Of a DNA stretch of 38,839 bases, positions 6,335 to 21,025 are shown in pieces. The first letter of the stretch is position 1, and every line of letters begins with the position of its first letter. Below the pieces are notes generated by a model. The model made no database searches. It saw nothing but the letters and a program-made list of their open reading frames with translations, and was not told the DNA's origin. Source of the stretch: a virus; IMG/VR virus record IMGVR_UViG_3300050821_019977, positions 1 to 38,839 of that record, one strand, 5' to 3'. Made by a program: the position numbers and the translations under genes.

Positions 6335-6604
6335 ATGGAATTAACAAAAGAAACAATTATTTTTATTTCGACAATATTGGGATCGGGATTTTCAGTAGTT
6401 GGTTTTATATATGCAATGATAAGAAATTTGAAAATAGATTTACATAAGAGTATTGATCACTTGGAGAAAAGAATGGATGGGTTTGATAAGCGAATGGACG
6501 GATTTGAAATGAGAATGAATGAGATGGATAATAGAATGTTTTTGCTTGCTACTGGTAAACGGCTTGAAGATGCGATTTTAGAAGAGAAAATGAAAAAAAA
6601 ATAA
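6335..6604 (+). CDS. Single-TM plus coiled-coil mini-protein (89 aa)
   Basis: The start is placed at ATG 6335 because a purine-rich GAGGAGAAGG precedes it; a nearer-upstream ATG at 6320 overlaps that ribosome site. Residues about 7-26 form one hydrophobic TM helix, followed by Arg/Lys residues and then a coiled coil with the imperfect repeat KRMDGF/KRMDGF/MRMNEMDNRM. The C-terminus is charged (LEEKMKKK). The predicted topology is a membrane anchor with a soluble coiled-coil tail. It opens a three-gene plus-strand cassette (6335-6970). Size and topology fit holin- or spanin-like lysis proteins or membrane-tethered exclusion factors; none is proven. Confidence 0.75.
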   Translation: MELTKETIIFISTILGSGFSVVGFIYAMIRNLKIDLHKSIDHLEKRMDGFDKRMDGFEMRMNEMDNRMFLLATGKRLEDAILEEKMKKK

Positions 6605-6615
6605 AGGAGAACAAT

Positions 6616-6843
6616 ATGGAACTAAACGTTTTGTTATGGATTTTAGGTGGAGGATTTACTGGGACTTGGGGTCTTTGTATTTTCTTCATGAATCGTACTG
6701 ATAATGCAATATTGCAAATGCGTATTGAAATAAAAGCAGAAATCAGTGAGATCCGTAAAGAAATTAGTGAGATAAAAAATTGTTTAAAAGATCATCATTC
6801 AAGACTTTGTGTGATAGAGGAGAAGAAGGAAAGTGGAAAATGA
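6616..6843 (+). CDS. Single-TM plus coiled-coil mini-protein (75 aa), DHHxRLC family
   Basis: AAGGAGAACAAT sits directly before ATG 6616. A hydrophobic helix (around residues 5-25) with Gly-rich centre is followed by a heptad-like helix (EIKAEISEIRKEISEIK) and a C-terminal motif KDHHSRLCVIEEKK. The same motif ends the protein at 20459-20716 (KDHHARLCVLEEKK), 14 kb away, and a variant (KDFHxRL) ends three more proteins at 19.8-20.5 kb. These shared residues with different N-termini indicate a paralogous family with a conserved tail. The lone cysteine in the motif could make disulfide-linked dimers. Role unknown; membrane-anchored. Confidence 0.8.
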   Translation: MELNVLLWILGGGFTGTWGLCIFFMNRTDNAILQMRIEIKAEISEIRKEISEIKNCLKDHHSRLCVIEEKKESGK

Positions 6844-6970
6844 AAAAATAGTTATGACTACACTTAGATTGCCTGTGTGGCTTTTGAAGAAGGCGAAGAT
6901 AAAAGCTATTGAGGATGGTATAAGCCTTGCTCAAATGATAATACATCTTTTGACGAAAGCCGTAGATTAA
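6833..6970 (+). CDS. Ribbon-helix-helix DNA-binding protein (45 aa)
   Basis: GTG 6833 lies inside the end of the preceding gene and follows AAGGAA at short spacing; ATG 6854 is an alternative. The product matches an Arc/MetJ-type ribbon-helix-helix: a short beta strand (TTLRLPVWL), helix 1 (KKAKIKAIEDG) and helix 2 (SLAQMIIHLLTKAV), nearly the whole protein. Such proteins bind DNA as dimers through the strand and often repress their own operon. It closes the cassette with two TM/coiled-coil genes; a comparable protein opens the larger cassette at 19630, suggesting a repeated genetic arrangement. Confidence 0.7.
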   Translation: MENEKIVMTTLRLPVWLLKKAKIKAIEDGISLAQMIIHLLTKAVD

Positions 6971-7113
6971 TTTCTATTTAAAATAACATACAGAATCGTA
7001 AAAATTATGTAAAGAACTGCAAATGTTACGATATAGCCGATAAAATAGCATTGAGGCTCAAGGTAAAAATAAAGCATTAGATTTTCTATCTTTTTCTTTA
7101 TCCATTTTCTCAT
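6967..7113 (-). CDS. Possible small membrane protein (48 aa)
   Basis: A frame from ATG 7113 gives a Lys-rich N-terminus (MRKWIKKKIENL) and one strong TM helix (GYIVTFAVLYIIFTILYVIL). A longer version from 7194 starts within a terminator stem and is less likely. It converges with the ribbon-helix-helix gene, sharing three bases at the stops. No ribosome site is visible, and minus-strand terminators lie upstream, so it would need its own promoter. Spurious AT-rich ORF is a real alternative. Confidence 0.3.
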   Translation of the reverse strand: MRKWIKKKIENLMLYFYLEPQCYFIGYIVTFAVLYIIFTILYVILNRN

Positions 7114-7164
7114 GATTTTAGGGTATAGAATTAAAGAATAAATATATATACATTTTTTTATGAA

Positions 7165-7192
7165 ATAAAAAAGCCCCTGGATAAGTAGGGGC
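7165..7192 (-). terminator. Intrinsic terminator (minus strand)
   Basis: On the minus strand, GCCCCT (7192-7187) and AGGGGC (7178-7173) form a 6-bp GC stem with an 8-base loop, followed at once by six U residues. This is a strong rho-independent terminator for transcription coming from the SpoVG-like and replication genes. Confidence 0.85.
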
Positions 7193-7232
7193 AAGGAAAA
7201 TATATGAGTATTTCTTTAGTATAGAGGAGTAG

Positions 7233-7418
7233 ATGATTTATCTAAAGAAAAAAGACCGTAATCATCCGGACTACGGCCTAGCATATATAGAAACCCTAGA
7301 AGATGATGAAGTTAAGATATATTTTCAATTATTTTCTGTCATGGTATTTTTTTTAAACACAGATTTCTATAGTTTTTTAGTTATTCATCCGACATGTCAA
7401 ATTCTTGATTTAAGCTAA
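7233..7418 (+). CDS. Possible small hypothetical protein (61 aa)
   Basis: ATG 7233 has a good GAGGAG ribosome site, and the first half (KKKDRNHPDYGLAYIE, then TLEDDEVKIYF) looks protein-like. The second half becomes Phe/Leu/Val-rich and ends just before the stop of the convergent minus-strand gene. A minus-strand terminator stem lies within its first codons. It may be a real small gene, possibly with a decayed or frameshifted 3' half. No family is recognised. Confidence 0.35.
   Translation: MIYLKKKDRNHPDYGLAYIETLEDDEVKIYFQLFSVMVFFLNTDFYSFLVIHPTCQILDLS
7245..7276 (-). terminator. Intrinsic terminator (minus strand), upstream of a second one
   Basis: On the minus strand CCGTA (7276-7272) pairs with TACGG (7260-7256) around an 11-base loop, followed by a T-rich tail (TCTTTTTTCTTT). 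Together with the stem at 7192-7173 it forms a tandem pair of minus-strand terminators about 150-250 bases after the SpoVG-like gene. Confidence 0.6.
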
Positions 7419-7427
7419 TTTTTTATC

Positions 7428-7823
7428 TTACCTGTGGGTTGATATGTTTTTTTGTTTTTGAACGATTCTAGGTGGATTTGTGTTAGAATTTGAACACTTC
7501 CCGTTTGATATCGATGACCTTTGTATTTCATTCAGCTTGTTTTGAATGATATCTCGATTTTTGAAAAGAAAGTCAAAAATGTCTTGAAGTTTAGCTCGGT
7601 TAGTGAAGGAAATGAAAGGGAAATGAACTAGAGTTTTTGTGCAAGGATCTATCTGGAATCCATAAGGCATCTTGAAGATAAAACCCTTTTTGTGAGTGAT
7701 CACTCTAATTCCACGGATATCCATATCGAAATCTTCGATGTAGATATGGCAAGTGCCAAGTATTTTTTTGTTTTTACGCTCTTCATTTTGAAAAGGGTAA
7801 AAGTCGACGAACTCTATTTTCAT
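7428..7823 (-). CDS. SpoVG-like protein (131 aa), tentative
   Basis: The N-terminal 90 residues contain IYIEDFDMDIRGIRV, a basic turn, FIFKMPYGFQIDP and HFPFISFTNRAKLQDIFDFL. This order (IRxIRV, then a PYG/MPS-like turn, then an F/T strand and helix) resembles SpoVG-type single-domain nucleic-acid binders, a recalled similarity rather than a searched one. The C-terminal 40 residues are polar and probably disordered. It lies immediately downstream of the replication-initiator-like gene, four bases away, suggesting a role in replication or its regulation. A plain hypothetical early protein is the alternative. Confidence 0.5.
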   Translation of the reverse strand: MKIEFVDFYPFQNEERKNKKILGTCHIYIEDFDMDIRGIRVITHKKGFIFKMPYGFQIDPCTKTLVHFPFISFTNRAKLQDIFDFLFKNRDIIQNKLNEIQRSSISNGKCSNSNTNPPRIVQKQKNISTHR

Positions 7824-7826
7824 ATA

Positions 7827-8915
7827 TTATCCTTTAAGTTTCATATATTTACATTCTATTAGATCTTTAACTTTTTTTTTGAAATTACCATCTAAAAAAG
7901 ATATAAAAACAGGGTATGAATGAGCACCTCCAATGCATTCAAAAAGTAAGCCTTTATCATGCTTAATTTTATCATCGTAAATTCTTATTTGCCAACCTTT
8001 TTCTACTTCTCCGTAATCTTCTACTAACTTAGCTGCAAAGACTTCGTGTTCGGAAATTCGCTTAGAGGTAGAGTTAGTGAATTTCCAATTCTTGATTGTA
8101 GTCACCCAATCTTTGATTTCGTTTTTGCGGCCTTTCCAGTCTTGGGCTTGGCAAATGATTTGTTCGACAATCTCAAGGGAATTCCAAACCTTCAAGCATT
8201 CGTTTATCTCGTTTTGAGTTAGGTAGACTTCTCTACAAACATGAATCTTCTTTGAAAAAGAATCATCAATCAAATCAAAAGAATTTAAAGGGGTAGGGGA
8301 TTGATGATCTTTATATCTTATCTTCTTATCATCTTGATTGTGGCCCTTAGTGGGCCCTAAGTGGGCCCTTTGTTGGCCCTTGAGTTGGCCCTCTTGTTTT
8401 GAAAATCGATCTGTAACCCATATGTAGGTGCTAAATCGGTTGGCCCTTGAGTTGGCCCCTTTTTTTAACAATCCTGCTTCAACCATGGAAAAGAGTTGGC
8501 CCCGGAATTCTTTTTGTGACAAAAAACAATCATTTGAATTTTTTCTACGACCGCATACAAATTCAAATGGTTCTAAAATAATTTCTTTACCATCCATAAT
8601 TATTTTATGAGATTCAGTACTGCATTTAGAAAAAGCCCATGTAACAAATTTAAGTGTATTTTCATTGTCAAACCAACCCATTTCTCTAAAATATTTAGGT
8701 ATAGGGGTTTCAAATAAATATGGAATTTTCGACATTGATTTACCTATTTCGTTGCTGAAATTCGGTAAACCTGATAATATAGAAGTATTACTAGCACTTC
8801 TTTTATTGTGTTTACTCGAATCTCGAGTTTTAAAATTGCCAGGATTTAAAACCCCTGGCTTTTTTGCTTTTCTGATCTTAACAGTTTCATGCTTAGAAAG
8901 CAATTCAATAACCAT
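7827..8915 (-). CDS. Replication initiator-like protein with internal iterons (362 aa)
   Basis: ATG 8915 follows AAGGAG at good spacing, below a plausible promoter. The basic N-terminus is probably disordered. Residues about 60-180 (FREMGWFDNENTLKFVTWAF, ... LSQKEFRGQLFSMVEAGLLK) look like a winged-helix domain of the phage replication-organiser type. A polar linker (around residues 150-195, GQLKGQQRAHLGPTKGHN) follows, and a C-terminal domain of about 140 residues with no motif I recognise. The linker DNA carries eight TKGGCCC repeats. Lambda O and similar initiators also hold their origin iterons inside the gene. The protein would bind these and recruit host replication proteins, since no phage DNA polymerase is seen. 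Function is inferred. Confidence 0.6.
   Translation of the reverse strand: MVIELLSKHETVKIRKAKKPGVLNPGNFKTRDSSKHNKRSASNTSILSGLPNFSNEIGKSMSKIPYLFETPIPKYFREMGWFDNENTLKFVTWAFSKCSTESHKIIMDGKEIILEPFEFVCGRRKNSNDCFLSQKEFRGQLFSMVEAGLLKKGANSRANRFSTYIWVTDRFSKQEGQLKGQQRAHLGPTKGHNQDDKKIRYKDHQSPTPLNSFDLIDDSFSKKIHVCREVYLTQNEINECLKVWNSLEIVEQIICQAQDWKGRKNEIKDWVTTIKNWKFTNSTSKRISEHEVFAAKLVEDYGEVEKGWQIRIYDDKIKHDKGLLFECIGGAHSYPVFISFLDGNFKKKVKDLIECKYMKLKG
8341..8502. repeat. Iteron cluster, candidate replication origin
   Basis: Eight copies of T(T/G)GGCCC or TGGCCC lie at 8341, 8351, 8362, 8373, 8385, 8440, 8452 and 8496, most as TTGGCCC spaced 11-12 bases apart, close to one helical turn. They stand out in an AT-rich gene. 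Several carry a longer unit, TTGGCCCTTGAGTTGGCCC. They all lie inside the linker region of the replication-initiator-like gene. Alternatively they only reflect a repetitive peptide linker. Confidence 0.6.
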
Positions 8916-8940
8916 TGCGCTTCTCCTTGAAAACTTTCCT

Positions 8941-8970
8941 AGAATATGCTAGAATAAGGACTACTTCCAA
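8941..8970 (-). promoter_or_regulatory. Sigma70-like promoter for the replication gene
   Basis: On the minus strand, TTGGAA (8970-8965) and TATTCT (8946-8941) are separated by 18 bases and lie just upstream of the ribosome site of the gene starting at 8915. It is downstream of a hairpin (9006-8981) that separates it from the repressor operon. Confidence 0.5.
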
Positions 8971-8980
8971 AAAGTATTCA

Positions 8981-9006
8981 AAAGCCGAAAGTTATCTCTC
9001 GGCTTT
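8981..9006 (-). terminator. Hairpin terminator between repressor operon and replication gene
   Basis: AAAGCCGA (8981-8988) and TCGGCTTT (8999-9006) form an 8-bp stem with a 10-base loop. The minus-strand transcript then reads UUUUGAAUACUUUUU, a modest U-tract. The position, after the 65-residue gene and before the replication promoter, fits termination of the repressor operon; a U-run also exists in the plus direction. Confidence 0.6.
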
Positions 9007-9045
9007 TTAAATCAAAGCGAAATGTATCAATATTAATTTTTGAAA

Positions 9046-9243
9046 TCAACCACCTTTGCAAATATATTTTTCTATAAGGGAAAGCCTCTCTTCTAGGTCT
9101 AGAAGAATTTTACTTTGTTCATTAAGACGAGCATAAGTTCCTCGACGAACTTTATCTGAGCTGATCTTTATAGCTTCAACTCTTTTTTGTATGTCTTCGA
9201 TGATTAATTCTTCATCTGTCTTAAAAAAATCAAGTTGAATCAT
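9046..9243 (-). CDS. Small hypothetical protein (65 aa), last gene of the repressor operon
   Basis: ATG 9243 overlaps the stop of the preceding gene as ATGA, which indicates translational coupling. The product is mostly helical and charged (DEELIIEDIQKRVEAIKISS, ... LLDLEERLSLIEKYICKGG), probably a small coiled-coil or helical-bundle protein with one Cys near the end. There is no TM segment. A terminator hairpin follows. No family is recognised. Confidence 0.65.
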   Translation of the reverse strand: MIQLDFFKTDEELIIEDIQKRVEAIKISSDKVRRGTYARLNEQSKILLDLEERLSLIEKYICKGG

Positions 9244-9494
9244 TGACTTTGAATTCCTAAACCAGCTTTTAACAAAGTTAATTGTTCTTCAATGGATTGA
9301 AGAATCATTTCCTTAGGATAGTCAGGGCCTTCTCTCAAAGTCTGTACAAGATGTTGCATGCGAATGATTGAACAGTACATAGCAAGACATCTATATTTCT
9401 GAAACATTATATCATCTTCCCATAAAGGTATATTTTCTCCACAAAAACAGGTTGTAGATATGATTACAAACAAACTAAGCATTATTTTTTTCAT
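9240..9494 (-). CDS. Small exported protein with signal peptide (84 aa)
   Basis: ATG 9494 has an AGGAGAG ribosome site. The N-terminus (MKKIMLSLFVIISTTCFCG) is a classic signal sequence: two lysines, a hydrophobic core, then small residues and two Cys. No strict lipobox is seen, so cleavage probably follows CFCG, leaving about 65 residues. The mature part contains further cysteines (YRCLAMYCSII) that could form disulfides, then helical residues. It is the only clearly exported protein in the window. In a repressor-linked operon it could act in the cell envelope, for example in superinfection exclusion; that is speculation. Confidence 0.65.
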   Translation of the reverse strand: MKKIMLSLFVIISTTCFCGENIPLWEDDIMFQKYRCLAMYCSIIRMQHLVQTLREGPDYPKEMILQSIEEQLTLLKAGLGIQSQ

Positions 9495-9508
9495 TCAATC
9501 TCTCCTCA

Positions 9509-9751
9509 TTATTCTTGATCTTTTTCCAATATCTCTTCTTGGATATCCCAAGTATCACTGATATATTCCATGAATTTTTTTTTATTCTTTATCTTAACAA
9601 AGCATTCATAGACTGAGAAATTTATCATTGCAGCTACTCCTATCCTAGGTGTGATATTATTTAGAATGAACATGTCTCTTATTAATTTCATTGCGCTATC
9701 TATTTGCTTTTCTATCCGAAGTTCATCAGATTTTTTAATCTTCTTCTTCAT
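9509..9751 (-). CDS. Small helical protein, paralog of its upstream neighbour (80 aa)
   Basis: The start is set at ATG 9751, which has AAGGAAAA upstream; an earlier ATG (9784) lies inside the neighbour. The pattern (IDSAMKLIRDMFILNNITPR, ... AAMINFSVYE, ... FMEYISDTWDI) matches the upstream gene (VDLLIETLHFNDIS, ... CALINLAVE, ... FMKLMSEIWDI) in order and spacing. This indicates a tandem duplication followed by strong divergence. All-helical, no TM, no known motif; function unknown. Confidence 0.7.
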   Translation of the reverse strand: MKKKIKKSDELRIEKQIDSAMKLIRDMFILNNITPRIGVAAMINFSVYECFVKIKNKKKFMEYISDTWDIQEEILEKDQE

Positions 9752-9965
9752 TACAGTTTTCCTTGTGAATATCCCAGATTTCACTCATTAACTTCATGAA
9801 CTCTGCTTTTTCTGTATCTTTAACGATAGTTTCAACAGCTAGATTTATCAAAGCACAGAATGAAATACTTGTTGAAATATCATTGAAATGTAAAGTCTCT
9901 ATAAGTAAATCTACGGTCTCATAAACTTCATCTGAAAAATTTTCTCCGATATCATAAAATTTCAT
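9735..9965 (-). CDS. Small helical protein, paralog of the downstream gene (76 aa)
   Basis: ATG 9965 with AGGATT upstream is preferred to ATG 10040, which lies in the preceding gene. The product is acidic and helical and ends in DIHKENCNEEED. Its core shares the order L-hydrophobic helix, N-D/N-I-S/T, A-x-I-N-x-(A/S)-V, F-M-x-x-(M/I)-S-x-x-W-D-I with the next gene. Starts and stops of this operon overlap by 14-17 bases, so the genes are translated together. Unknown function, probably an oligomeric early protein. Confidence 0.7.
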   Translation of the reverse strand: MKFYDIGENFSDEVYETVDLLIETLHFNDISTSISFCALINLAVETIVKDTEKAEFMKLMSEIWDIHKENCNEEED

Positions 9966-10329
9966 TCTGAATCCTTTGTTCATAATCACGCTTAAGAGCT
10001 TTTTCAAGCAGCAAATGTGCCACAATTTTCCCTTCATCAAACCATTTTAAGAATGGATTTGTATCATTTTCATGTAAGAAAGCAAAAGATTCACCTATTT
10101 TTTTCCACGATTCTCCTTCCCAAGGCTTATATAGATTAAAATCTTCATCATGAGAATCAGAATAATTTTGTTTTTCTGGATTCTCATTCATGATATAACT
10201 ACGGACTATTCTTTTATCATCAGAACGCAAATCATTTAGATAATTTTTAACTTCAACTGGATCATCCCAAATGGAATCAATCTTTTCTACCCCATGATCT
10301 ATGTAGAAAACGATATAAATGTCTTTCAT
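9952..10329 (-). CDS. Hypothetical acidic protein (125 aa) in the repressor operon
   Basis: ATG 10329 overlaps the stop of the repressor gene as ATGA, with AGAGAG as a weak ribosome site; the longer frame from 10365 lies within the repressor gene. It begins with a beta-rich stretch (MKDIYIVFYIDHGVEKIDSI) and has an acidic middle (SDSHDEDFNLYKPWEGESWK) and a helical C-terminus. No TM or known motif. Coupling to the repressor suggests coregulation as an early or lysogeny-type gene. Function unknown. Confidence 0.65.
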   Translation of the reverse strand: MKDIYIVFYIDHGVEKIDSIWDDPVEVKNYLNDLRSDDKRIVRSYIMNENPEKQNYSDSHDEDFNLYKPWEGESWKKIGESFAFLHENDTNPFLKWFDEGKIVAHLLLEKALKRDYEQRIQNEIL

Positions 10330-10550
10330 AAATTCTCTCTTTTTTTTTTCATTTGATTGTAACAAAACAGCATCAATTCATCCCATTTAACTTGTCCTTG
10401 TGTTTTTTCTTCGATTTTAAGTGCTAAGGACATATGTGGAAGGAATTTACCAGCTTTTATGGAGCATAAATAAGTATAGTTACATCCTACTTCTTTAGCT
10501 AATTTTGAAAGCTTAGTTTTATTTTTAAAAATATATTCATCTAAAAGCAT
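10326..10550 (-). CDS. Cro/C1-type helix-turn-helix regulator (74 aa)
   Basis: ATG 10550 has AGGGGAAAA in front. Residues about 12-50 (LSKLAKEVGCNYTYLCSIKA, then GKFLPHMSLALKIEEKT) fit a lambda-repressor-like helix-turn-helix: helix 2 LAKEVG, turn, recognition helix NYTYLCSIKAG, then the P-x-M-S-L-A-x-K-I-E helix. There is no cleavage or dimerisation domain, so it resembles Cro or a small plasmid-type repressor. It faces the plus-strand recombination operon across two divergent promoters and a palindrome, and so very likely controls that switch. Confidence 0.8.
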   Translation of the reverse strand: MLLDEYIFKNKTKLSKLAKEVGCNYTYLCSIKAGKFLPHMSLALKIEEKTQGQVKWDELMLFCYNQMKKKRENL

Positions 10551-10594
10551 TTTTCCCCTAAAAATTTATGTTTACATTTTTATTAAGATATTTA

Positions 10595-10623
10595 AGTATA
10601 CGCGGTTTGGCTATTTATAACAA
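10595..10623 (-). promoter_or_regulatory. Promoter of the repressor operon
   Basis: On the minus strand TTGTTA (10623-10618) and TATACT (10600-10595) are separated by exactly 17 bases, a good sigma70 match. Transcription would start roughly 40 bases upstream of the repressor ATG. Confidence 0.6.
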
Positions 10624-10669
10624 TAACTTGGTCATGACGAAAATTTATTTGTAGAATATGAGAAAGTGT

Positions 10670-10698
10670 TTGGAGAAAATCAAAGCTTGTGTTATAGT
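10670..10698 (+). promoter_or_regulatory. Promoter of the plus-strand recombination operon
   Basis: TTGGAG (10670-10675) and TATAGT (10693-10698) have 17-base spacing. The -10 region lies inside the palindrome at 10687-10715, so a protein bound there would block this promoter. Confidence 0.55.
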
Positions 10699-10715
10699 TA
10701 TCATATATAACACAA
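10687..10715. promoter_or_regulatory. Operator-like inverted repeat
   Basis: TTGTGTTATA (10687-10696) and its exact reverse complement TATAACACAA (10706-10715) are separated by 9 bases. This perfect 10-bp inverted repeat covers the -10 of the plus promoter and lies 16 bp before the first ATG. It is the best candidate binding site for the adjacent Cro/C1-like regulator. Confidence 0.65.
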
Positions 10716-10730
10716 AACGATAGGAAGACC

Positions 10731-10931
10731 ATGAAAATCGAAATAGAACTCATGACAATAGGTAATCAGACAGTAGCTTTGCCTAGATCTCAAAACGCTT
10801 TTAGGGGATGCCAATTAGTTAGAAGAGATTACATGACAACCCAAGAAATTAAAATTTTATCAAAAATGGGATTCGAAATCCTTGAAGTCCCACAAAAAAA
10901 CAAAAAAAAGGAGAATCAAAATGCAATATAA
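10731..10931 (+). CDS. Small hypothetical early protein (66 aa)
   Basis: First gene after the plus promoter and operator, at ATG 10731 (GATAGGAAGACC upstream gives AGGA). The product has an N-terminal beta segment (KIEIELMTIGNQTVALPRSQ), a basic RGCQLVRRD patch and a short helix (QEIKILSKMGF). The C-terminus is Lys-rich. The last 11 bases overlap the next gene. No family is recognised; the basic charge and operon context allow a DNA-binding role. Confidence 0.6.
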   Translation: MKIEIELMTIGNQTVALPRSQNAFRGCQLVRRDYMTTQEIKILSKMGFEILEVPQKNKKKENQNAI

Positions 10932-11184
10932 CAAACAATATGACTATTGGGCCGATAAAGAATCGGAATCGGATTACTATCAACCTATTGAAAGCACTTA
11001 TTGCCGGTCAGCAGAAGATGCAGTCGAAAATATTATAGATGAACTCTTCAATTCTTGCAAGATAAATGAAGAATGTGTACGCCAATCACTGAAATATTTA
11101 TGTTGGCATTTTAAAATCAATAACGAATTCAGAGATGCATTAAATTATGAGACATCTTTGCCTATTAATTGCTTAGAAAGGTAA
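10921..11184 (+). CDS. Small hypothetical protein (87 aa)
   Basis: The start is at ATG 10921, with AAAGGAGAA upstream, rather than an earlier in-frame ATG inside the previous gene. The product is acidic, with many Tyr/Asp/Glu near the N-terminus (QYDYWADKESESDYYQPIES), a helical middle and paired Cys near residues 50-60. No TM segment. It precedes the RecT-like gene by 14 bases in the same operon, so it may assist recombination, but nothing in it proves this. Confidence 0.65.
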   Translation: MQYNKQYDYWADKESESDYYQPIESTYCRSAEDAVENIIDELFNSCKINEECVRQSLKYLCWHFKINNEFRDALNYETSLPINCLER

Positions 11185-11198
11185 ATTTAAGGGGATTT

Positions 11199-12014
11199 AT
11201 GAACCAACTACAAACTATAGAAATAGATGATTTCGCTAGATCAATAGCAGAAATTGAACAAACACAAAAAATGTGTGCTGCATTGATGCAAACTAAGCAT
11301 TATGCAAAGTTGAATGAAGTAGGCATATTTACGGTTGTACAAAAGGCAAGAAGTATGGGTATGAATGTGCTCGATGCTTTGAATGGAGGGATGTATTTCG
11401 TAAATGGAAAGGTTGAACTTTCAGCTAATTCTATGAATTACTTGATACGTTCTAAAGGTCATAGCGTAACAAAAGACCCAAAAAGCACAAAGGATTGTTG
11501 TGTTTTGCAAGGTAAAAGAGCAGATAATGGGGATCATTGGATAGTTAGTTTCTCTATTGAAGACGCTAAAAAGGCCGGCATTTATAAGAATGTTTGGCTT
11601 ACATATCCAGAAGATATGCTTTTTGCTAGAGCGCTATCTAGATTAGCTAGACAACTTTTTCCAGATGTGATTAAAGGATGTTATGTTGAAGGAGAGTTAA
11701 CGCAATCTTTCACTCCAGAAACTAAAGACTATAAAGCCTTAGATATAATTGCTTCTAATGAAGTTGAACCATCAAAAGAAGTTTTTATATCTGAAGATCA
11801 AGCATTTGAGTTATGTGATAAACTTGTTTTATGTAGCTCTGAATATCAAAAAGAAATCAAAAAATATTTCCAAAAAATAGGAGTAAAAGATACACTTGTA
11901 GATCTCCCAATAACACTTTTTGAACGTGTAAGCAAAGCTATGGATAAAAATATTAGTGAATGTAAAGCGGCTTTACACGAGGAATCACAAGAAAATCAAA
12001 TTGCCACTGCATAG
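11199..12014 (+). CDS. RecT-like single-strand annealing protein (271 aa)
   Basis: ATG 11199 has AAGGGG upstream. Conserved-looking blocks, in order: YAKLNEVGIFTVVQKARSMG (around residues 38-57), ALNGGMYFVNGKVELSANSM, the KGHSV strand, then RALSRLARQLFPDVIKGCYV near residue 145. This matches the RecT/Redbeta class: it coats single strands and pairs homologies, and works with a 5'-3' exonuclease. The YqaJ exonuclease gene lies 300 bases downstream in the same operon, the usual partner. The C-terminal 80 residues are polar and helical. Within the last codons sits a 17-bp palindrome (11961-11977). Confidence 0.8.
   Translation: MNQLQTIEIDDFARSIAEIEQTQKMCAALMQTKHYAKLNEVGIFTVVQKARSMGMNVLDALNGGMYFVNGKVELSANSMNYLIRSKGHSVTKDPKSTKDCCVLQGKRADNGDHWIVSFSIEDAKKAGIYKNVWLTYPEDMLFARALSRLARQLFPDVIKGCYVEGELTQSFTPETKDYKALDIIASNEVEPSKEVFISEDQAFELCDKLVLCSSEYQKEIKKYFQKIGVKDTLVDLPITLFERVSKAMDKNISECKAALHEESQENQIATA
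11961..11977. repeat. 17-bp palindrome, copy 1 (in the RecT-like gene)
   Basis: TGTAAAGCGGCTTTACA: two 8-base arms around one central G. Its exact reverse complement occurs once more, at 13472-13488. Both copies are followed, in their written strand, by a cgag-agg sequence within 15 bases. They could be protein-binding sites or short mobile or recombination sites. Confidence 0.7.
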
Positions 12015-12020
12015 TAAATC

Positions 12021-12047: not shown

Positions 12048-12065
12048 AAAGTTAAGGAAAAATAT

Positions 12066-14256: not shown

Positions 14257-14276
14257 TCTTTTCTCCTAAAGTAAAG

Positions 14277-15791
14277 TTAGATTTTATTCCACTGCGTTCC
14301 ATTGTACACAACAGTAGCAGATCCAAAGTTAGTCGTTATCTTAAGATTCGCAGCTCCATCGATATTGCCTGCTGCGGGAACAATTGTTATATTGTTTGCA
14401 GCTGCTCCACCTGTATTGTCTTTTATAATAAATCGTTGTCCTGTTACAGGACTTGCATTTAGATTGATAGTTCTTGCTGATGTAGTATCAACGATAATAA
14501 CTGCATCTTGTGGAACTGCTGTATAAGGATAGGCTCCTGGGGCTTTAATTGTTATGGCATCATTTGACATAACTCTAGGATTTTGCGTCGTAGTATTAGT
14601 TAAAGAAGAAGTGTTTTTAAAAACACATCCACCCATTGCAGCCACTCCAGCACCAGTAATGGCATTTGTGTTCGTAGAATCAATAACACAATTGACAATC
14701 TGTGTATCATTGTTTGCTATTGATATAGCACTAGCTGAACCTGATGTGAAAATTGAATGATAAAGATTATTCTGACTTGAAGTTGTACCTAATGTTAAAC
14801 AAGTAGCATTAGCATTATTCATGAAAGCATATTCGCTTTCCATAAATCCTGTAGAAGATGAAGTTATTGGATTATTGAAGCGAGTACAAAATAACCTACA
14901 ACCTCCTGAGCTAGCATGAGTACTAGCTGTCGTTGAAGCATTTGCTATACAATATCTGAATTCAACTCCAGAAGCACCTGCAAGAGTGAAAACATTTGTT
15001 GCAGAACTTAATATACAATTAATTACTTTCGTTGATTGTGAGACATTACTTGAATTAAAAACAAGAGGAGTATTGCTAGCACCATCAATATTGCTATTAA
15101 AAATATTAAGGAGTGTTGCACTATTTCCAGTAACCGTTATAGCCGCTGTTGCACCATTAGTCAGAAAATGAATTCCTGTCATACAAGCTGTTCCTGCAAA
15201 ACTTGCAGTAACTGTTCCATTAATAGTTACAGTTGGTGTATCTCCATCACCATTATAGGCAGCTAAATTGACGCCAGCTTTAAGAGTAATATTCTCTGTA
15301 TATGTCCCTGGTAATATGATGATCGTATCACCACTTGTGGCTGATGTTAAAGCCGAGCCGATTGTAGTATGTGTTCCATTGAATCCTAAACCATCTACTA
15401 TCCATCTTGCAGATGACATAGGATTAATGTTAATAAGATTAGTTCCAGCAACTGTAGTCGAGAATTTAGTGGCACCTTGTTCATTTACATGTCCAACTAA
15501 TTGAATGTTATTTCCAGAAGGCAAAGCTTTAACGCCTACATCATCGGAAAGAGTTTCCATGATTGTTCCACTTCCGGAAGCATCTATAGTTATATTCGGT
15601 GATGAATAACCAATCGCAATTGTTCCCAAAGGAGAAGTTAATGTTCCAACATTAATATGTGTCCCACCACCATTCAAAGCTGTTGATGCTATAAGAATCT
15701 GTCCATTTGTAAGCATTGTAGGTGCTGGAGTGGCTGCCCCAGAAAAGTCAACATTTACTCCAAAGAATGTATCGTTATCAATTCCTGCCAT
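14277..15791 (-). CDS. Beta-helix tail spike or fibre protein (504 aa)
   Basis: ATG 15791 is used because AGGAGAA lies at correct spacing; the longer frame from 15827 overlaps the preceding gene. The middle (around residues 160-430) has many short repeated strands: GDTIIILPGTYTENITLKAG, TVTINGTVTASF, ITVTGNSATLLNIFNS, VINCILSSAT, YCIANAS. This is right-handed parallel beta-helix (pectate-lyase-like) style with solvent-facing Asn. No catalytic residues are clear. The C-terminal 70 residues (KAPGAYPYTAVPQDAVIIVD...) form a separate domain ending VVYNGTQWNKI, typical of phage adsorption proteins. Probable receptor-binding. Confidence 0.7.
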   Translation of the reverse strand: MAGIDNDTFFGVNVDFSGAATPAPTMLTNGQILIASTALNGGGTHINVGTLTSPLGTIAIGYSSPNITIDASGSGTIMETLSDDVGVKALPSGNNIQLVGHVNEQGATKFSTTVAGTNLININPMSSARWIVDGLGFNGTHTTIGSALTSATSGDTIIILPGTYTENITLKAGVNLAAYNGDGDTPTVTINGTVTASFAGTACMTGIHFLTNGATAAITVTGNSATLLNIFNSNIDGASNTPLVFNSSNVSQSTKVINCILSSATNVFTLAGASGVEFRYCIANASTTASTHASSGGCRLFCTRFNNPITSSSTGFMESEYAFMNNANATCLTLGTTSSQNNLYHSIFTSGSASAISIANNDTQIVNCVIDSTNTNAITGAGVAAMGGCVFKNTSSLTNTTTQNPRVMSNDAITIKAPGAYPYTAVPQDAVIIVDTTSARTINLNASPVTGQRFIIKDNTGGAAANNITIVPAAGNIDGAANLKITTNFGSATVVYNGTQWNKI

Positions 15792-15798
15792 ATTTCTC

Positions 15799-16350
15799 CT
15801 AGTCTGAGACAACGCCTGGTAAGGCAACTGTCCAATTTATTGTTTTTCCTACAGATCCTGTTACTTGAACTATAAAAGATGGACCTGTAGTTCCTACTGT
15901 AAATGTAGTTCCAGGCAATCCAGGATCTCTATTAACGATAATATCTGCAGTTCCTATAAGCGAAGCAGTTCCTGCTACATTTTTAACAGTAGCTGTACAA
16001 TAACCTCCCACTGTTAATCCATCAGGTTCGTCATTTCCTACTACGATCACTTGAATAGTTAAACTTTGTCCTGTAGCTAAAACAAATGAAAAAGCTGTAG
16101 ATGTCACTGCCCCAACTGTTATAACAGAACCTCTTTGAAAATCTATGATAAGGGCACCAGGAACTGCTGTTTGATTTGTTACGATACCATTGTCTCCACC
16201 CAATCTTAAAACATTAGCTTGAGGAACTACTGTACCTTGAAAAGCATTTATAGTAGTTATTGTAGTATCGTTTTTGTCTACTGTAAAACTTGTAGGAACT
16301 TGAGGGGGTACTGGACCTGAAGCAGTACTATTTATTCCAGCTTGAGACAT
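15799..16350 (-). CDS. Beta-rich tail-associated protein (183 aa)
   Basis: ATG 16350 lies 9 bases after the upstream stop, and the downstream gene starts 8 bases after this gene ends. The N-terminus is Pro/Ser/Gln-rich and likely a flexible linker (ASGPVPPQVPTSFTV). The rest is two beta-sandwich-like stretches with many Thr/Val/Ile and Gly (GNDEPDGLTVGGYCTATVKN, PGLPGTTFTVGTTGPSF). No signal peptide, TM or enzyme motif. Position between fibre and spike suggests a fibre adaptor or baseplate component. Confidence 0.65.
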   Translation of the reverse strand: MSQAGINSTASGPVPPQVPTSFTVDKNDTTITTINAFQGTVVPQANVLRLGGDNGIVTNQTAVPGALIIDFQRGSVITVGAVTSTAFSFVLATGQSLTIQVIVVGNDEPDGLTVGGYCTATVKNVAGTASLIGTADIIVNRDPGLPGTTFTVGTTGPSFIVQVTGSVGKTINWTVALPGVVSD

Positions 16351-16359
16351 GATTTGTCC

Positions 16360-16689
16360 TTAATTTTGTATAATATATTGTGATACTAAATATACTAATC
16401 CAGTACCTGCAGCTCCTTTAACGAATATTTGTGTGCCTTCAGGAATTGCAGCATCTCTACCTCCCCCTAATTTACCCTCATCATAAAGCCAAAATGAAGA
16501 TGCGGGAGCTACATCTATATCAGTAACTCCATCTAGTGAAATAGTCACTAATACTGTTGAATTATTTACAAGTTTACAGATATAGGAAGGATGAAGTAAA
16601 GGTCCCCCCACAGGAAGATAAATTCCTGTGAAGGTTGCCGAATCAACAGTTCTTAAAGTTTCCCAGGTAATTCTTGCAGTATAAGCCAT
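16360..16689 (-). CDS. Beta-rich tail-associated protein (109 aa)
   Basis: The start overlaps the preceding stop by one base (TAATG style). The product is a compact beta-sandwich candidate with GIYLPVGGPLLHPSYICKLV, a DVAPASSFWLYDEGK turn and a C-terminal VYLVSQYIIQN. Such short proteins with strand-Gly-Pro patterns accompany fibre genes in many podoviruses and may be tail knobs or adaptors. No catalytic motif is present and no family is certain. Confidence 0.6.
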   Translation of the reverse strand: MAYTARITWETLRTVDSATFTGIYLPVGGPLLHPSYICKLVNNSTVLVTISLDGVTDIDVAPASSFWLYDEGKLGGGRDAAIPEGTQIFVKGAAGTGLVYLVSQYIIQN

Positions 16690-16883
16690 TATTTACCTTC
16701 TGTTTCTGAAGCGGTATTTTCTTTTTGTTTTAAGTCTTCTTGTTCTTTTAAACGTCCATAAATATAACTTCTAAATGTGTCTAAACCCTGTAAAGCCTCT
16801 GTTAAAGAGGTATCGTTTTCACAGATATAAATCTGTTCTTTATCATTGATTTTTGTTTCCAAATGTGTTTTTTGTCTTATCAT
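16689..16883 (-). CDS. Small helical protein between fibre genes (64 aa)
   Basis: ATG 16883 follows the long fibre gene by 19 bases and its stop overlaps the next start. The product is polar and mostly helical (SLTEALQGLDTFRSYIYGRL, then KEQEDLKQKENTASETEG). Unlike its beta-rich neighbours, it could be a fibre-assembly chaperone or trimerisation aid. Inference only from position and helicity. Confidence 0.6.
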   Translation of the reverse strand: MIRQKTHLETKINDKEQIYICENDTSLTEALQGLDTFRSYIYGRLKEQEDLKQKENTASETEGK

Positions 16884-16902
16884 TTTTTTCCTTCATTTTT
16901 TT

Positions 16903-19494
16903 CTAAGCTGGTCTTACGATAAAATATGCAAAGGTACTTACGTCTAAAGTTTGAGTTGATCCTGGTGTACCAAGAATTAAACTTGTTACTGTAAAACTTG
17001 TACCATTTGAAATTGTATATGTCAATTCTCCAAGTGTTGTTGAAGCATTTACAGCTGTTCTAGATAATATAATCATATCCCCAGTAGCTATATTTGTATT
17101 TGCTATAGTGACTGTACCAGCAGTAAGAGTTCCAGTTCCAATAAAGTCAGTTACAGCTCCATGGTGTACTTGAAGCATTTTACCAGCACTATTGATCAAC
17201 AGATTTCCACCAGTTACAACTACATTTCCAGATCCTGCATTTATAGTTGTTGTTGAAGTGGAATTTGTTGAACCTATTGTAACTGAATTTGCTCCAGCTC
17301 CTGTACCTATTGCAATTGTTTTACCACCAGTGGAATTACCGATATTAATTGTCTGAGCTCCAGTACCACCACCTATTGTCATGGTTCCAGTTGCAGCTCC
17401 AGTACCACCAAAGTTCATTGTTCCTGTAGTTACAGAAGGTGCAAATGTATAAGTTGAACTTGCAGCGCCATCTAAGCTGAAATTACCTGTACCAACAAGT
17501 TGAGAAAGTGAAGAAGCACCAGTTACAGAACCTATAGTTATAACATTGGCTCCTGCTCCTGCTGCTATGTTTAGTGTCTTACCACCAGTAGAATTAGCAA
17601 AGTTGATAGTCTGAGCTCCAGTACCACCGAATAATGTAGCTGTTCCAGTTCCAGCACCTGTAGAACCAATAGTAAGAGTACCAGTTGTCATCGCAGCACC
17701 TATAGATACAGATCCAGCGACTTGCGCATTAGCAATTTGAACAGTAGTAGCTCCTGCTCCACCAGCAATCACTAATGTGTTTGTTCCAGAACTTGAACCT
17801 AATGTCATCGTTCCTGTTTGTGCAGTACCGCCTATTGTGATGGTTCCTGTCGTAGTTGAAGCACCAACTGTATAAGTTGAACTTGCAGCGCCATCTAAAC
17901 TATAATTACCTGTACCCACTCTTTCTACAATAGCGCTAGCACCTGTAGTATTTCCTATATTTGTAGTAGATGCTGCAGCACCTGTTGCAATATTAACTGT
18001 TTGTGTACCTGCTGTAGAAATACCGGCAAGTATATTTATAGTTGTACTTGCACCTGTTGCACCTGAAGCCAAGTTTAGAGTTTGTGTGCCTGCTGTAGCT
18101 ATACCATTTAGAATACTAACTGTAGAATTGGCTGCTGCAGCTCCAGAAGCAATACTTACTGATTGTGTGGAAGTATTAACACCATTTCCTATAGTTATTG
18201 TATTTCCTGAAACACCATTTCCTATAGAAATTGTTTTAGCACCATTATTATTTGCTAAAGTTACAGTTTGTGCTCCTGTAGATGGATCTAAAATAAAATT
18301 ACCAGTTTGAGCACCTGTACCACCTATAGAAATAGTTCCTGTTGTCATACCTGAACCGAGAACAACTGACCCGGCAGTTTGGGCATTTGCTATTTGAAGT
18401 GTTGTAGCACCTGCACCTCCTGCTATAATGAGAGTATTAGTACCTGAGCTTGATCCTAATGTTAAATTACCCGTCTGAGCAGTCCCACCTATTGTGATTG
18501 CTCCAGTTGTTAATCCTGCACCGACATTTATTGCTCCTGCTGTAGTTACATTAGCAATATTGACTGTAGTAGCTCCTGCTCCATTTCCTATTGCAATTGT
18601 ATTTGTTCCTGAAGAAGATCCTAGAGTCAATGTACCTGTAGCAGCAGTGCCACCTATGGTAAAAGTTCCAGACGTTTGAGCTGCTGCCATGGTTACATTA
18701 GTTGTTGCTGCCGTAGTAAGAACAAAGTTTCCAGTTCCAGCTTGAAGTGTTAAGGAAGCTGCACCTGTAGTTGATCCGACAGTTACTAAATTTGCAGCTG
18801 CATCATTAGCTATACCTACTGTATTACCACCACCAGTCAAAGAAAAGTTTCCTGCTCCTGTAGCAATTAAAATAGCTCCTGATGAACCACCAATTGTAGT
18901 AGTTCCTGTTCCTGTGGCATTAAGACTTACTGTGCCGACCGCTGTTAAATTCGTAAATGTACCTGCGGCTGGTGTTGTTCCACCTATTGCAGGAGCTGCA
19001 GCAAAAACCGCTGCGAGGTTAGATGGTTGAACAGCTAAGGCCGTTACTCCTGGTACTGTTGCTGTTCCTGCAACTGCCTGTGCATTAGTAGCTAGATTTG
19101 TTATACCTGTAACTGTAGTTTGAGCAATAGCTGCTCCTCCTAATACAACTGACTGTACAAAAGTAAACACGTCATTTGCTAAAGGTACAAAAGGACCAGC
19201 CGGAGCAGTCCCACCTTCTAATTGTGCTAATGTAGATAATTGAACAAGACCTGCTACAGTAGTAGTTGCTAAAGAATTACCACCAGAACTCCAATTTGAA
19301 GAAAGAGTCCCACCTACTGAAGTCTGACTGGTTAAATCATAAACATTATTACCTACCGTATCTACCCATGTTTTACCTATTGGATAGTTAACATCTGAGG
19401 TTGTTGGAGGTCTCACATCTAAATGAGGGACTTCTACGTTTTCTGGTCTAAGTCCGAAACCTGCTGTATAAATATTTCCGCCTGGCTGAAACAT
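16903..19494 (-). CDS. Long Gly/Thr/Ala solenoid tail fibre (863 aa)
   Basis: The first 60 residues include RPPTTSDVNYPIGKTWVDT, the usual start of a virion-attached fibre with a conserved anchoring region. From about residue 170 to 800 the chain is almost wholly G, A, T, S, N, I, L and V in short repeats such as TGTITIGGTAQTGTMTLGSS, SGTNTLVIAGGAGATT and VQIANAQ, many nearly identical in blocks (around residues 330-380 and 560-610). This suggests a repetitive beta-solenoid shaft. A distinct C-terminal 80 residues (MLQVHHGAVTDFIGTGTL...) may be the tip. Probable main receptor-binding fibre. No intramolecular peptidase motif is visible. Confidence 0.75.
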   Translation of the reverse strand: MFQPGGNIYTAGFGLRPENVEVPHLDVRPPTTSDVNYPIGKTWVDTVGNNVYDLTSQTSVGGTLSSNWSSGGNSLATTTVAGLVQLSTLAQLEGGTAPAGPFVPLANDVFTFVQSVVLGGAAIAQTTVTGITNLATNAQAVAGTATVPGVTALAVQPSNLAAVFAAAPAIGGTTPAAGTFTNLTAVGTVSLNATGTGTTTIGGSSGAILIATGAGNFSLTGGGNTVGIANDAAANLVTVGSTTGAASLTLQAGTGNFVLTTAATTNVTMAAAQTSGTFTIGGTAATGTLTLGSSSGTNTIAIGNGAGATTVNIANVTTAGAINVGAGLTTGAITIGGTAQTGNLTLGSSSGTNTLIIAGGAGATTLQIANAQTAGSVVLGSGMTTGTISIGGTGAQTGNFILDPSTGAQTVTLANNNGAKTISIGNGVSGNTITIGNGVNTSTQSVSIASGAAAANSTVSILNGIATAGTQTLNLASGATGASTTINILAGISTAGTQTVNIATGAAASTTNIGNTTGASAIVERVGTGNYSLDGAASSTYTVGASTTTGTITIGGTAQTGTMTLGSSSGTNTLVIAGGAGATTVQIANAQVAGSVSIGAAMTTGTLTIGSTGAGTGTATLFGGTGAQTINFANSTGGKTLNIAAGAGANVITIGSVTGASSLSQLVGTGNFSLDGAASSTYTFAPSVTTGTMNFGGTGAATGTMTIGGGTGAQTINIGNSTGGKTIAIGTGAGANSVTIGSTNSTSTTTINAGSGNVVVTGGNLLINSAGKMLQVHHGAVTDFIGTGTLTAGTVTIANTNIATGDMIILSRTAVNASTTLGELTYTISNGTSFTVTSLILGTPGSTQTLDVSTFAYFIVRPA

Positions 19495-19593
19495 ATAAAA
19501 ACTCCTTGAATTTAAAATATAAACTAAGGTTTTTATTTGTTATATAAAAGAAAATATTTATTACTACATGAAATATACTTGATAAAAAACACA

Positions 19594-19623
19594 TTGTGTT
19601 AAATTGCATAAATTGCGTATGAT
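19594..19623 (+). promoter_or_regulatory. Promoter for the plus-strand TM cassette
   Basis: TTGTGT (19594-19599) and TATGAT (19618-19623) are separated by 18 bases. The first ATG (19630) is at the expected transcription start, so the first gene may be translated from a leaderless or very short leader mRNA. A tandem AAATTGC pair lies between the two elements and could be an operator. This 135-base gap lies between the divergent fibre gene and the cassette. Confidence 0.5.
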
Positions 19624-19629
19624 AGAGAT

Positions 19630-19800
19630 ATGGAAAAGATCATAAGAATGAGAATACCAAACATCTTGTATAAGAGATATAAAGTCATTTGTGCTAAACT
19701 TGACTTGTCAATGCCAAAGCAAAATGCTGAACTTATCAGACAATTTGTAGAAGTTCAGGAAAAGAATGCAAAAATAATAGAAAATATCAAGGAAAAATGA
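19630..19800 (+). CDS. Ribbon-helix-helix-like small protein (56 aa)
   Basis: ATG 19630 lies 7 bases after a -10 element with no convincing ribosome site. The N-terminal IIRMRIPNILYKRYKVICAK and following LDLSMPKQNAELIRQFVEVQ fit a ribbon-helix-helix: strand RMRIP, helix 1, turn, helix 2. A Lys/Glu-rich tail follows. It resembles the 45-residue protein at 6833 in arrangement. It opens the TM/coiled-coil cassette (19630-21025), as the other one closes the cassette at 6.3-7.0 kb. It may autoregulate this operon. Confidence 0.6.
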   Translation: MEKIIRMRIPNILYKRYKVICAKLDLSMPKQNAELIRQFVEVQEKNAKIIENIKEK

Positions 19801-19801
19801 G

Positions 19802-20020
19802 ATGGATTGGACTCAAGTTTTAACAATAATTGCTTCAAATGTTGCTTTAATGGCGATCAGTATAGGAAGTACAATAACTTTATTTTTATGGGCTAGATCT
19901 GAAGCTAGAGAAGACCAACATCAAATTAGAGATTTAGTAGTAGCTATTCAAGAAGAAATGAAAGATTTTCATGGACGATTATGCTCTATCGAAGAAAGAA
20001 CTAAAACTAAGGAGAAATAA
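19802..20020 (+). CDS. TM plus coiled-coil mini-protein (72 aa), MDWTQ family
   Basis: It starts one base after the preceding stop. A TM helix (VLTIIASNVALMAISIGSTI, around residues 6-28) is followed by charged residues and the tail QEEMKDFHGRLCSIEER. The next two genes start with the same MDW(T/S)Q and end with the same KDFHxRL motif, so the three are tandem duplicates. Predicted topology is an N-terminal TM anchor with a soluble C-terminal helix. Could be a holin- or antiholin-like protein, or part of a membrane-tethered complex. Confidence 0.8.
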   Translation: MDWTQVLTIIASNVALMAISIGSTITLFLWARSEAREDQHQIRDLVVAIQEEMKDFHGRLCSIEERTKTKEK

Positions 20021-20021
20021 T

Positions 20022-20228
20022 ATGGATTGGTCTCAATTTGGAATATTTTTAATTTCAGTAGGGGGGATGTTTTTATGGAGCAGATCCGAATCAAGATCAG
20101 ATCATAGGGCTCTAGAATCTTGGACTAAAGATATGTTATCTTCTATTCAAGCAGAAATAAAAGATTTTCATGGTAGACTATGTGCTTTAGAAGAGAAAAA
20201 CAAAAATAAAGATAAAAAGGAGAAATAA
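20022..20228 (+). CDS. TM plus coiled-coil mini-protein (68 aa), MDWSQ family
   Basis: ATG 20022 with AAGGAGAAATAAT upstream is preferred to an earlier in-frame ATG in the previous gene. Starts MDWSQFGIFLISVGG, then MFLWSRSESRSDH, so the TM segment is short. The tail is QAEIKDFHGRLCALEEKNKN, then a Lys-rich end. It has the same head and tail motifs as its two neighbours but lost part of the hydrophobic segment seen in the 72-residue copy. Tandem paralog of unknown role. Confidence 0.8.
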   Translation: MDWSQFGIFLISVGGMFLWSRSESRSDHRALESWTKDMLSSIQAEIKDFHGRLCALEEKNKNKDKKEK

Positions 20229-20229
20229 T

Positions 20230-20457
20230 ATGGATTGGTCTCAAGTTTTAACTGTACTTGGTGGGAATATGGCTATGTTTTTATGGGCTGTTAGACAAGG
20301 TAGATCAGATTTTCTACACCTAGATAAAAAATTAGATGAAAATAGAAAAGAAACTAATAACTTAATAAAAGCTATTCAAGAAGAAATGAAAGATTTTCAT
20401 GAAAGATTGTTTTCTTTAGAGGAGAGGAATAAAAATAAAGATAAAAAGGAGAAGTGA
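20230..20457 (+). CDS. TM plus coiled-coil mini-protein (75 aa), MDWSQ family
   Basis: It follows the previous stop by one base, with AAGGAGAAATAAT just before. MDWSQVLTVLGGNMAMFLWA gives the TM segment, then a longer coiled coil (HLDKKLDENRKETNNLIKAI), then QEEMKDFHERLFSLEER. The Cys of the KDFHGRLC motif is Phe here (HERLF). The C-terminal NKNKDKKEK matches the previous copy, so the duplication is recent. Membrane-anchored, unknown function. Confidence 0.8.
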   Translation: MDWSQVLTVLGGNMAMFLWAVRQGRSDFLHLDKKLDENRKETNNLIKAIQEEMKDFHERLFSLEERNKNKDKKEK

Positions 20458-20458
20458 C

Positions 20459-20716
20459 ATGGACGAAAATTTTATTTCATGGATTCAAATAATAACAATC
20501 TTAGGATCAAATCTTGTGATTATGTTAACTTTTTTTGGAATTTCTATTACTTTATATATTTCTTTAAGTAATTCCACTTCTCAAACTATAATTGAAATTA
20601 GAAAGGAAATTGGACAAATTCGTAACGAAATTAGTGAACTATATCACTGTGTTAAAGATCACCATGCCCGTTTATGCGTTTTAGAAGAAAAAAAAAAGGA
20701 TAATAAAGGAAAATAG
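20459..20716 (+). CDS. TM plus coiled-coil mini-protein (85 aa), DHHxRLC family
   Basis: ATG 20459, directly after the previous gene, has AAGGAGAAG upstream. The TM segment spans about residues 8-36 and is longer than in neighbours (IITILGSNLVIMLTFFGISI then TLYISL). A coiled coil (IIEIRKEIGQIRNEISELYH) precedes the tail KDHHARLCVLEEKKKDNKGK. The tail and the RKEIxxIRxEISE segment match the protein at 6616-6843 more closely than its immediate neighbours. This indicates exchange or common origin between the two cassettes. Confidence 0.8.
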   Translation: MDENFISWIQIITILGSNLVIMLTFFGISITLYISLSNSTSQTIIEIRKEIGQIRNEISELYHCVKDHHARLCVLEEKKKDNKGK

Positions 20717-20719
20717 ATT

Positions 20720-21025
20720 ATGATAAATTTTATAGGATTTATTTTTTTATTTTTCATTTTATTATATGCATACATAAAAATGAATAAAGATGATAAATAT
20801 AATAGAATTAAAAATGAAAATGATTTTTTAAAATCTAAGATAGAAGAAGAAAAAAATGAGAAAAATAAAATTAAAATGGACAAACTATACAGAATTAAAG
20901 AAAAACAAGAACAAAGGAAAAATCGTCTTAAATTAATAGAAATGGATAGAATTGAAAATGAAAGAACTGAAAAAAAATTAAAATTTCAAAAGTTAAGAGA
21001 AAAATATAGAGAAATTCATTCTTGA
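20720..21025 (+). CDS. TM plus long basic coiled-coil protein (101 aa), spanin-like topology
   Basis: A TM helix (MINFIGFIFLFFILLYAYIK) is followed by about 80 residues of almost continuous Lys/Glu/Arg/Asn coiled coil (KNEKNKIKMDKLYRIKEKQE and on). This is the longest coiled coil in the family and resembles an inner-membrane spanin (Rz) in layout, although no outer-membrane lipoprotein partner was found. Its last 10 bases overlap the 3' end of the large ejection-protein gene on the opposite strand. Lys-rich low-complexity composition is a caution. Confidence 0.65.
   Translation: MINFIGFIFLFFILLYAYIKMNKDDKYNRIKNENDFLKSKIEEEKNEKNKIKMDKLYRIKEKQEQRKNRLKLIEMDRIENERTEKKLKFQKLREKYREIHS

Follow-up and report, generated by a model that had tools for sequence, protein, structure and literature searches.

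Modular families of small membrane coiled-coil proteins in an uncultured phage and its relatives

The 38,839-base IMG/VR virus record IMGVR_UViG_3300050821_019977, analysed here at its full length and called the window below, encodes a portal protein, a large terminase, a major capsid protein, RecT and a RecE/YqaJ exonuclease. It also carries, at three loci between positions 6335 and 21025, nine open reading frames (ORFs) for small proteins proposed to have a single transmembrane (TM) helix followed by a charged coiled coil, and the question raised is what so many mini-proteins of this kind may be doing in one phage. The analysis indicated that they belong to several real families, widespread and still without a name, whose modular organization is unusual. 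Regarding their role, the overall best explanation, to which we give a probability of about 0.4, is that they are accessory membrane adaptors for superinfection exclusion or host takeover.

Mini-protein genes and tail families

The nine ORFs recognised in a previous sequence-only reading were all present, most of them with GGAG-like ribosome sites and separated by gaps of 1–3 nt. They are listed below; scores in bits refer to the family A profile described afterwards.

6335–6604, plus strand: family C mini-protein, RMFLLATGKRLEDAILEEK tail; ATG at 6335 with GGAGAAGG upstream; 14 matches in 14 loci
6616–6843, plus strand: family A tail (KDHHSRLCVIEEK) on a non-A head; 34 bits overall, head p=0.64, tail 26.5 bits
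12066–12317, plus strand: family B mini-protein, DKLYEIF / DKIYDMY tail, between the RecT and YqaJ genes; best relative 3.6e-12
13268–13453, plus strand: family B mini-protein, DKQYEIFIDMVK tail, downstream of the YqaJ gene; best relative 3.9e-12
19802–20020, plus strand: family A mini-protein, KDFHGRLCSIEER tail; 108 bits; one helix predicted by AlphaFold2
20022–20228, plus strand: family A mini-protein, KDFHGRLCALEEK tail; 84 bits; junction GAGAAATAATATGG
20230–20457, plus strand: family A mini-protein, KDFHERLFSLEER tail; 77 bits
20459–20716, plus strand: family A mini-protein, KDHHARLCVLEEK tail; 43 bits
20720–21025, plus strand: orphan with a single TM helix and a long charged coiled coil, at the end of the cassette; 2.6 bits

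For the third of the family A genes listed, ATG 20022 was preferred as start because a longer ORF from 19971 would overlap the preceding gene. An N-terminal TM helix had been proposed for all nine products. Hydrophobicity backed it clearly in six (6335, 6616, 13268, 19802, 20459 and 20720, with best 19-residue means of 1.65–2.37), but the segment was short in 20022 and 20230 (1.1–1.2) and weak in 12066 (0.92). Among the relatives, a crude filter for a TM segment plus a charged helix was passed by 209 of 240 family members versus 283 of 11530 other small ORFs.

The family A profile used in the tests was built solely from relatives outside the window, and each ORF was compared with 1000 shuffles. 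Products 19802, 20022, 20230, 20459 and 6616 reached the scores listed above (0/1000 shuffles each), while 6335, 12066, 13268 and 20720 were rejected (2–5 bits). A shared family was therefore found for five ORFs but not for all nine, which form three tail groups and one orphan, 20720, for which no relative was found among related phages. The tail motifs themselves had been correctly described; however, the KDFH and KDHH types, taken as separate subgroups, belong by profile to one family A, whose window members share a KD[FH]HxRLC tail. The pairing of 12066 and 13268 by DKxYEIF did stand, and corresponds to tail family B with its own relatives.

The consensus tails are KDFHGRLCxIEER for family A, which has an MDW-type head, RTDRLYEMFIDLxK for family B and RMFxLATGKxLADAIxEEK for family C. 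All three recur in related uncultured phages of about 40 kb. A fourth type, D (KNIMPAELA), is frequent in relatives and absent from the window, and a fifth, EERRNKxxLYxFV, was noticed in G053, G019 and L146. The family A tail is near-invariant, with D55, H57 and L60 unchanged in 37 rows, although it also served as search pattern and its conservation was thus partly selected for.

Heads and tails of these proteins do not always travel together. A profile made only from the family A head matched (shuffle p<=0.01) 8 of the 23 proteins with a B tail and 4 of the 9 with a C tail, and the A-tail profile matched none of those same proteins. The shuffles preserved composition by thirds, so that the head signal may partly reflect a shared TM character. 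The converse swap was seen in 6616, which joins an A tail to a head not matching the A-head profile. Taken together, these combinations indicate, on statistical grounds, that heads and tails have recombined between families.

AlphaFold2 predicted the 19802 product as one helix spanning residues 3–71, with a pLDDT (predicted local distance difference test) of 95.8. Since the family A model is only a straight helix, a fold search would be pointless. Lysine and arginine residues were more numerous behind the TM segment than ahead of it in family A (124 of 130 sequences), family B (14 of 15) and family C (3 of 3), a pattern that suggests an N-outside/C-inside topology with coiled coil and tail in the cytoplasm.

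Cassette organization and regulation

The three window loci differ in content. A C and an A gene lie upstream of the packaging genes, two B genes surround YqaJ, and the main slot, between a fibre gene and a late gene of 724 codons, holds a regulator followed by four A genes and the orphan. The regulator gene had been omitted from the earlier list. The features that frame these loci are the following.

19630–19800, plus strand: opens the main cassette and encodes a DNA-binding protein of 56 aa with a ribbon-helix-helix (RHH) fold; supported by same-slot relatives, a PDB profile match and an AlphaFold2 model
19588–19623, no strand assigned: operator/promoter-like stretch before the RHH gene, read from sequence
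16903–19494, minus strand: fibre-like repeat protein, late; flanks the main cassette and is divergent from it; conserved neighbour of mini-protein cassettes
21016–23190, minus strand: 724-aa ejection/internal-protein-like late gene, convergent with the cassette; role by position only; conserved flank
11169–13162, plus strand: RecT, 12066 and YqaJ/RecE exonuclease, an early-type operon (PHROG 561, 3.8e-18; PHROG 434, 1.2e-53)

The 3' end of the 20720 gene overlaps the convergent 21016–23190 gene by 10 nt, and the product of the latter had no match in Pfam or PHROG. In the same fibre slot of many relatives, an RHH or HTH_17 regulator (the alternative one, Pfam 3e-11) is followed by mini-protein genes. 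All 32 fibre-adjacent cassettes run opposite to the fibre gene, and 21 of 28 regulators are divergent to it. Late genes of the window are mostly on the minus strand. A late-gene neighbour could be mapped for 99 cassettes, of which 81, including the 32 beside the fibre gene, have the opposite orientation to it; with respect to early genes, 30 of 34 cassettes share their strand.

In total, 135 distinct cassettes were collected, including those with only a regulator. Many of them mix tails, as in HTH-A-D-C, HTH-A-B-D, RHH-A-B, RHH-A-C and AAAABBBBA, the last in L130. The three commonest gaps between genes within cassettes were −1, −4 and +1 nt, which points to translational coupling. Judging from this arrangement, it is plausible that mixed coupled cassettes with different tails make hetero-oligomers of mini-proteins.

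The 19630–19800 product is assigned a ribbon-helix-helix fold by profile search, and structure prediction is consistent with it. Its profile matched 2kel (2.8e-4) and ParG 1p94 (0.006) in the PDB, and the model showed an extended N-terminus plus two helices (pLDDT 92.7). In Foldseek the best PDB matches of this model were RHH repressors and antitoxins, CopASO and ParD included, none of them reaching an E of 0.001. This protein probably autoregulates its cassette. The stretch before its gene contains a palindrome, AACACATTGTGTT (19588–19600), a direct repeat of AAATTGC (19601–19607 and 19610–19616) and TATGAT (19618–19623), features that are suggestive of an operator/promoter. The palindrome occurs as one perfect copy in the window, with 4 loose matches versus 2.4 expected, and the other cassettes of the window lack a copy upstream; a window-wide regulon acting through it was therefore not supported.

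Distribution and exchange among phages

One strict tail pattern retrieved 185 IMG/VR relatives of family A. The family A set collected here comprises 159 sequences from 93 phages or genomes, a few of these being chlamydial chromosomal copies; at least two copies were found in 35, with a maximum of seven. Of 50 relatives chosen by capsid protein, 25 had no family A member scoring above threshold, and no A–D member was found in the near-complete relatives G001, G002, G003, G194, G143 and G276, whose contigs are possibly slightly incomplete.

For 88 of the 101 members belonging to multi-copy genomes the closest relative sits in another genome, which indicates that the sets are collections of divergent variants and not fresh tandem copies. 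As all five A members of the window are closer to copies of other phages, recent tandem duplication was rejected as the origin of the window set. The tandem B copies of L130 do look recent.

Searches of Pfam, PHROGs, NCBIfam and PADLOC gave nothing significant for the mini-proteins, only weak scores of coiled-coil type. A hand-made 58-aa family A consensus had no tblastn match among phage isolates and plasmids, and the family A profile had no PDB match better than an E of 0.15. A family recurring in considerably more than one hundred contigs of uncultured phages thus matches neither a model in these collections nor a sequenced phage isolate. Bases 5000–22000 of the window had no DNA similarity to any sequenced phage and only one sequenced phage matched the capsid protein (23% identity), whereas this protein has more than 200 close relatives in IMG/VR, many of them on contigs of 36–42 kb.

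Possible function of the mini-proteins

The proposal of accessory membrane adaptors may be put as follows. Each mini-protein would be one long helix that begins with a short stretch, crosses the membrane once and continues as a charged coiled-coil rod with a family-specific tail at its end. Coupled genes would yield several of them at a time; their cassettes, where they occupy the fibre slot, mostly open with a gene for a DNA-binding regulator and are oriented opposite to the late genes. They may form mixed coiled-coil bundles on the inner membrane, whose tails would serve to dock to a conserved partner or a small number of such partners. More speculatively, as separately regulated moron-like genes they could block competing phages or take over the host membrane; acting as the lysis holin would not be their role. 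The divergent variants would have been gathered by each phage through exchange. A tentative extension, which we consider rather doubtful as a whole, is that of a combinatorial kit of helical membrane adaptors, in which tailed phages of chlamydia-like bacteria would combine various heads with at least 4–5 docking tails, forming regulator-switched mixed bundles on the inner membrane, the genes being traded between phages and chlamydial chromosomes in a contest at the membrane level.

Known exclusion systems are among the closest comparisons. P22 SieA, Tuc2009 Sie2009 and TP-J34 Ltp are membrane-linked blockers of DNA injection, and the exclusion protein HK97 gp15 is a moron, its gene being an accessory unit of its own located among late genes (PMC10883804). 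Like the HK97 gp15 type, the mini-proteins are phage-encoded, sit in or are anchored to the inner membrane by prediction, as do most of the exclusion proteins named, and form an accessory unit; both the TM filter and the regulated opposite-strand slot agree with a small membrane protein encoded independently. In contrast to that type, they occur in multi-copy mixed cassettes with swappable tails, a regulator and a tail predicted to be cytoplasmic. The Bdr proteins of Borrelia cp32 prophages are multi-copy small coiled-coil membrane proteins with a C-terminal span and a rod built of repeats. As far as this general description goes the mini-proteins resemble them in being multi-copy, phage-encoded and small with a coiled coil, but their membrane span is N-terminal. 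The cassettes are classed here with accessory membrane moron cassettes, which does not place the proteins in any known family of exclusion proteins, holins or scaffolds.

Several observations weigh against the exclusion or takeover proposal. No significant sequence similarity to known exclusion proteins was found in Pfam, PHROGs, NCBIfam or PADLOC (best PHROG, SieB, 0.067). A tail predicted to be cytoplasmic is not an obvious geometry for stopping DNA entry via the periplasm, and the topology itself is called from charge alone, acidic residues also crowding the C-terminal flank. Moreover, a conserved tail is unlike the contact surface expected in an arms race. Finally, no complete integrase was recognised, so it is uncertain whether exclusion would be used in lysogeny.

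The main rival, an unlikely one, is a scaffold at the membrane on which phage DNA would be replicated, recombined or packaged, the cytoplasm-facing rods tethering phage DNA or enzymes to the membrane. It would agree with the position of 12066 between RecT and YqaJ and of 13268 after YqaJ, with the predominance of the early-gene strand, and with the C-inside topology favoured by charge. The phi29 proteins p16.7 and p1 have an N-terminal TM segment and a coiled coil and are expressed early, traits that the mini-proteins appear to share. However, the model of a single helix at residues 3–71 leaves no folded C-terminal DNA-binding domain such as that of p16.7, and the tails are exchangeable. Copy number varies from 0 to 7, several relatives have none, the slots are scattered and have their own regulators, and solitary copies exist in host chromosomes, all of which fits poorly with a scaffold.

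It is improbable that the mini-proteins are lysis proteins (holins, antiholins or spanin-like proteins) for a host with little peptidoglycan. With one TM helix and a coiled coil they do resemble Rz-type i-spanins and holins. In addition, a search for lysozyme, SLT and Amidase_2 domains in the window and 24 relatives, 25 phages in all, found no endolysin, which makes membrane-only lysis conceivable; PHROG spanin and holin scores were weak (0.03–0.07), with one family A member at 0.0023 to phrog_214. These scores are nevertheless scattered over many unrelated families, as coiled coils would give. An i-spanin has an N-in/C-out arrangement with a periplasmic coiled coil, whereas the charge pattern here predicts the opposite, with the C-terminus inside; no lysis neighbours were seen either. 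A holin role is unlikely because of the placement opposite to the late genes and the absence from several near-complete relatives, and the same two findings bear out the view of the sequence-only reading that this is not a normal lysis cassette, while disfavouring the holins it had suggested.

Quite improbable too is a module of a regulator and a small membrane toxin (toxin–antitoxin or killing module) kept by phage or host. An RHH or HTH gene does stand directly before small TM proteins, the RHH model resembles the DNA-binding domains of the antitoxins CopASO and ParD, and 20459 weakly matches a 2TM effector (6.7e-4). Nevertheless, two unrelated regulator folds are swapped while the mini-proteins stay, most cassettes have no detected regulator, and repeated mixed copies with conserved tails would be unusual for toxins. 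It is very improbable indeed that these are mobile passengers that spread into intergenic gaps by recombination and bring the phage no advantage, since the several slots and the exchange between phages and chromosomes that they would account for are accompanied by near-invariant tails (in part selected for by the search pattern), coupled translation and a conserved regulator and orientation.

Likely host

Scanning of about 85,000 species genomes yielded five loci matching family A. Four of the five genomes (L165, L166, L167 and L168) were assigned to Chlamydiota, one having been labelled Acidobacteria by its depositor. In total, the family was present in 6 of 234 Chlamydiota genomes. Alphaproteobacteria were rejected as host, the only positive among 289 genomes of that class being the locus already found. 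In four Chlamydiota genomes a terminase at 39–53% identity lay on contigs of 35–40 kb, that is, phage-sized pieces binned with the genomes. Lone family A copies were located in the chromosome of L167, beside shikimate genes, and in that of G128, near acc, efp and ftsY genes. In the tree, three chlamydial chromosomal copies were placed at three separate positions among the phage copies.

The hosts are therefore likely to be Chlamydiota, chlamydia-like bacteria, although binning can mislead. If so, the conserved tails and the regulated slot would give a concrete handle on phage action at the chlamydial membrane. The known cultured phages of Chlamydiota are small microviruses. No report of tailed ones was found in a narrow literature search, and tailed phages of Chlamydiota seem to be little described.

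Two further observations were made in Chlamydiota genome bins. They contain the tailed-phage contigs G194:C2, G143:C388, G276:C102, G215:C1 and G053:C19, of 35–41 kb. A chromosome from a Chlamydiota bin carries, at L237 9518–9829, a family A copy with repeated GRLxxQDAxFK tail units, adjoining a gene for 2066 aa.

Other features of the genome

At 35427–36055 the window encodes a 182-aa protein resembling the DNA-binding half of a tyrosine recombinase, with the catalytic half missing and no Pfam match, directly followed by a tRNA-Asn gene (35982–36055). Together they may be the remnant of an integration module.

In L227, L229, L241 and L243 (relatives G194, G143, G579 and G580), an extra ORF of roughly 90–220 aa splits the major capsid gene in two, which suggests the insertion of an intron, an intein or a homing gene; Rfam gave no intron in L227, L229, L243 and L070, those checked.

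The Pfam domain E1_FCCH, whose name comes from the eukaryotic ubiquitin-activating enzyme, strongly matched two structural proteins of the window, at 25114–28485 (1.4e-27, three stretches) and 31722–32894 (1.6e-9). Finally, a collagen-like repeat protein is encoded on the minus strand at 37044–37883, and similar proteins are present in the relatives G008, G029 and G053.

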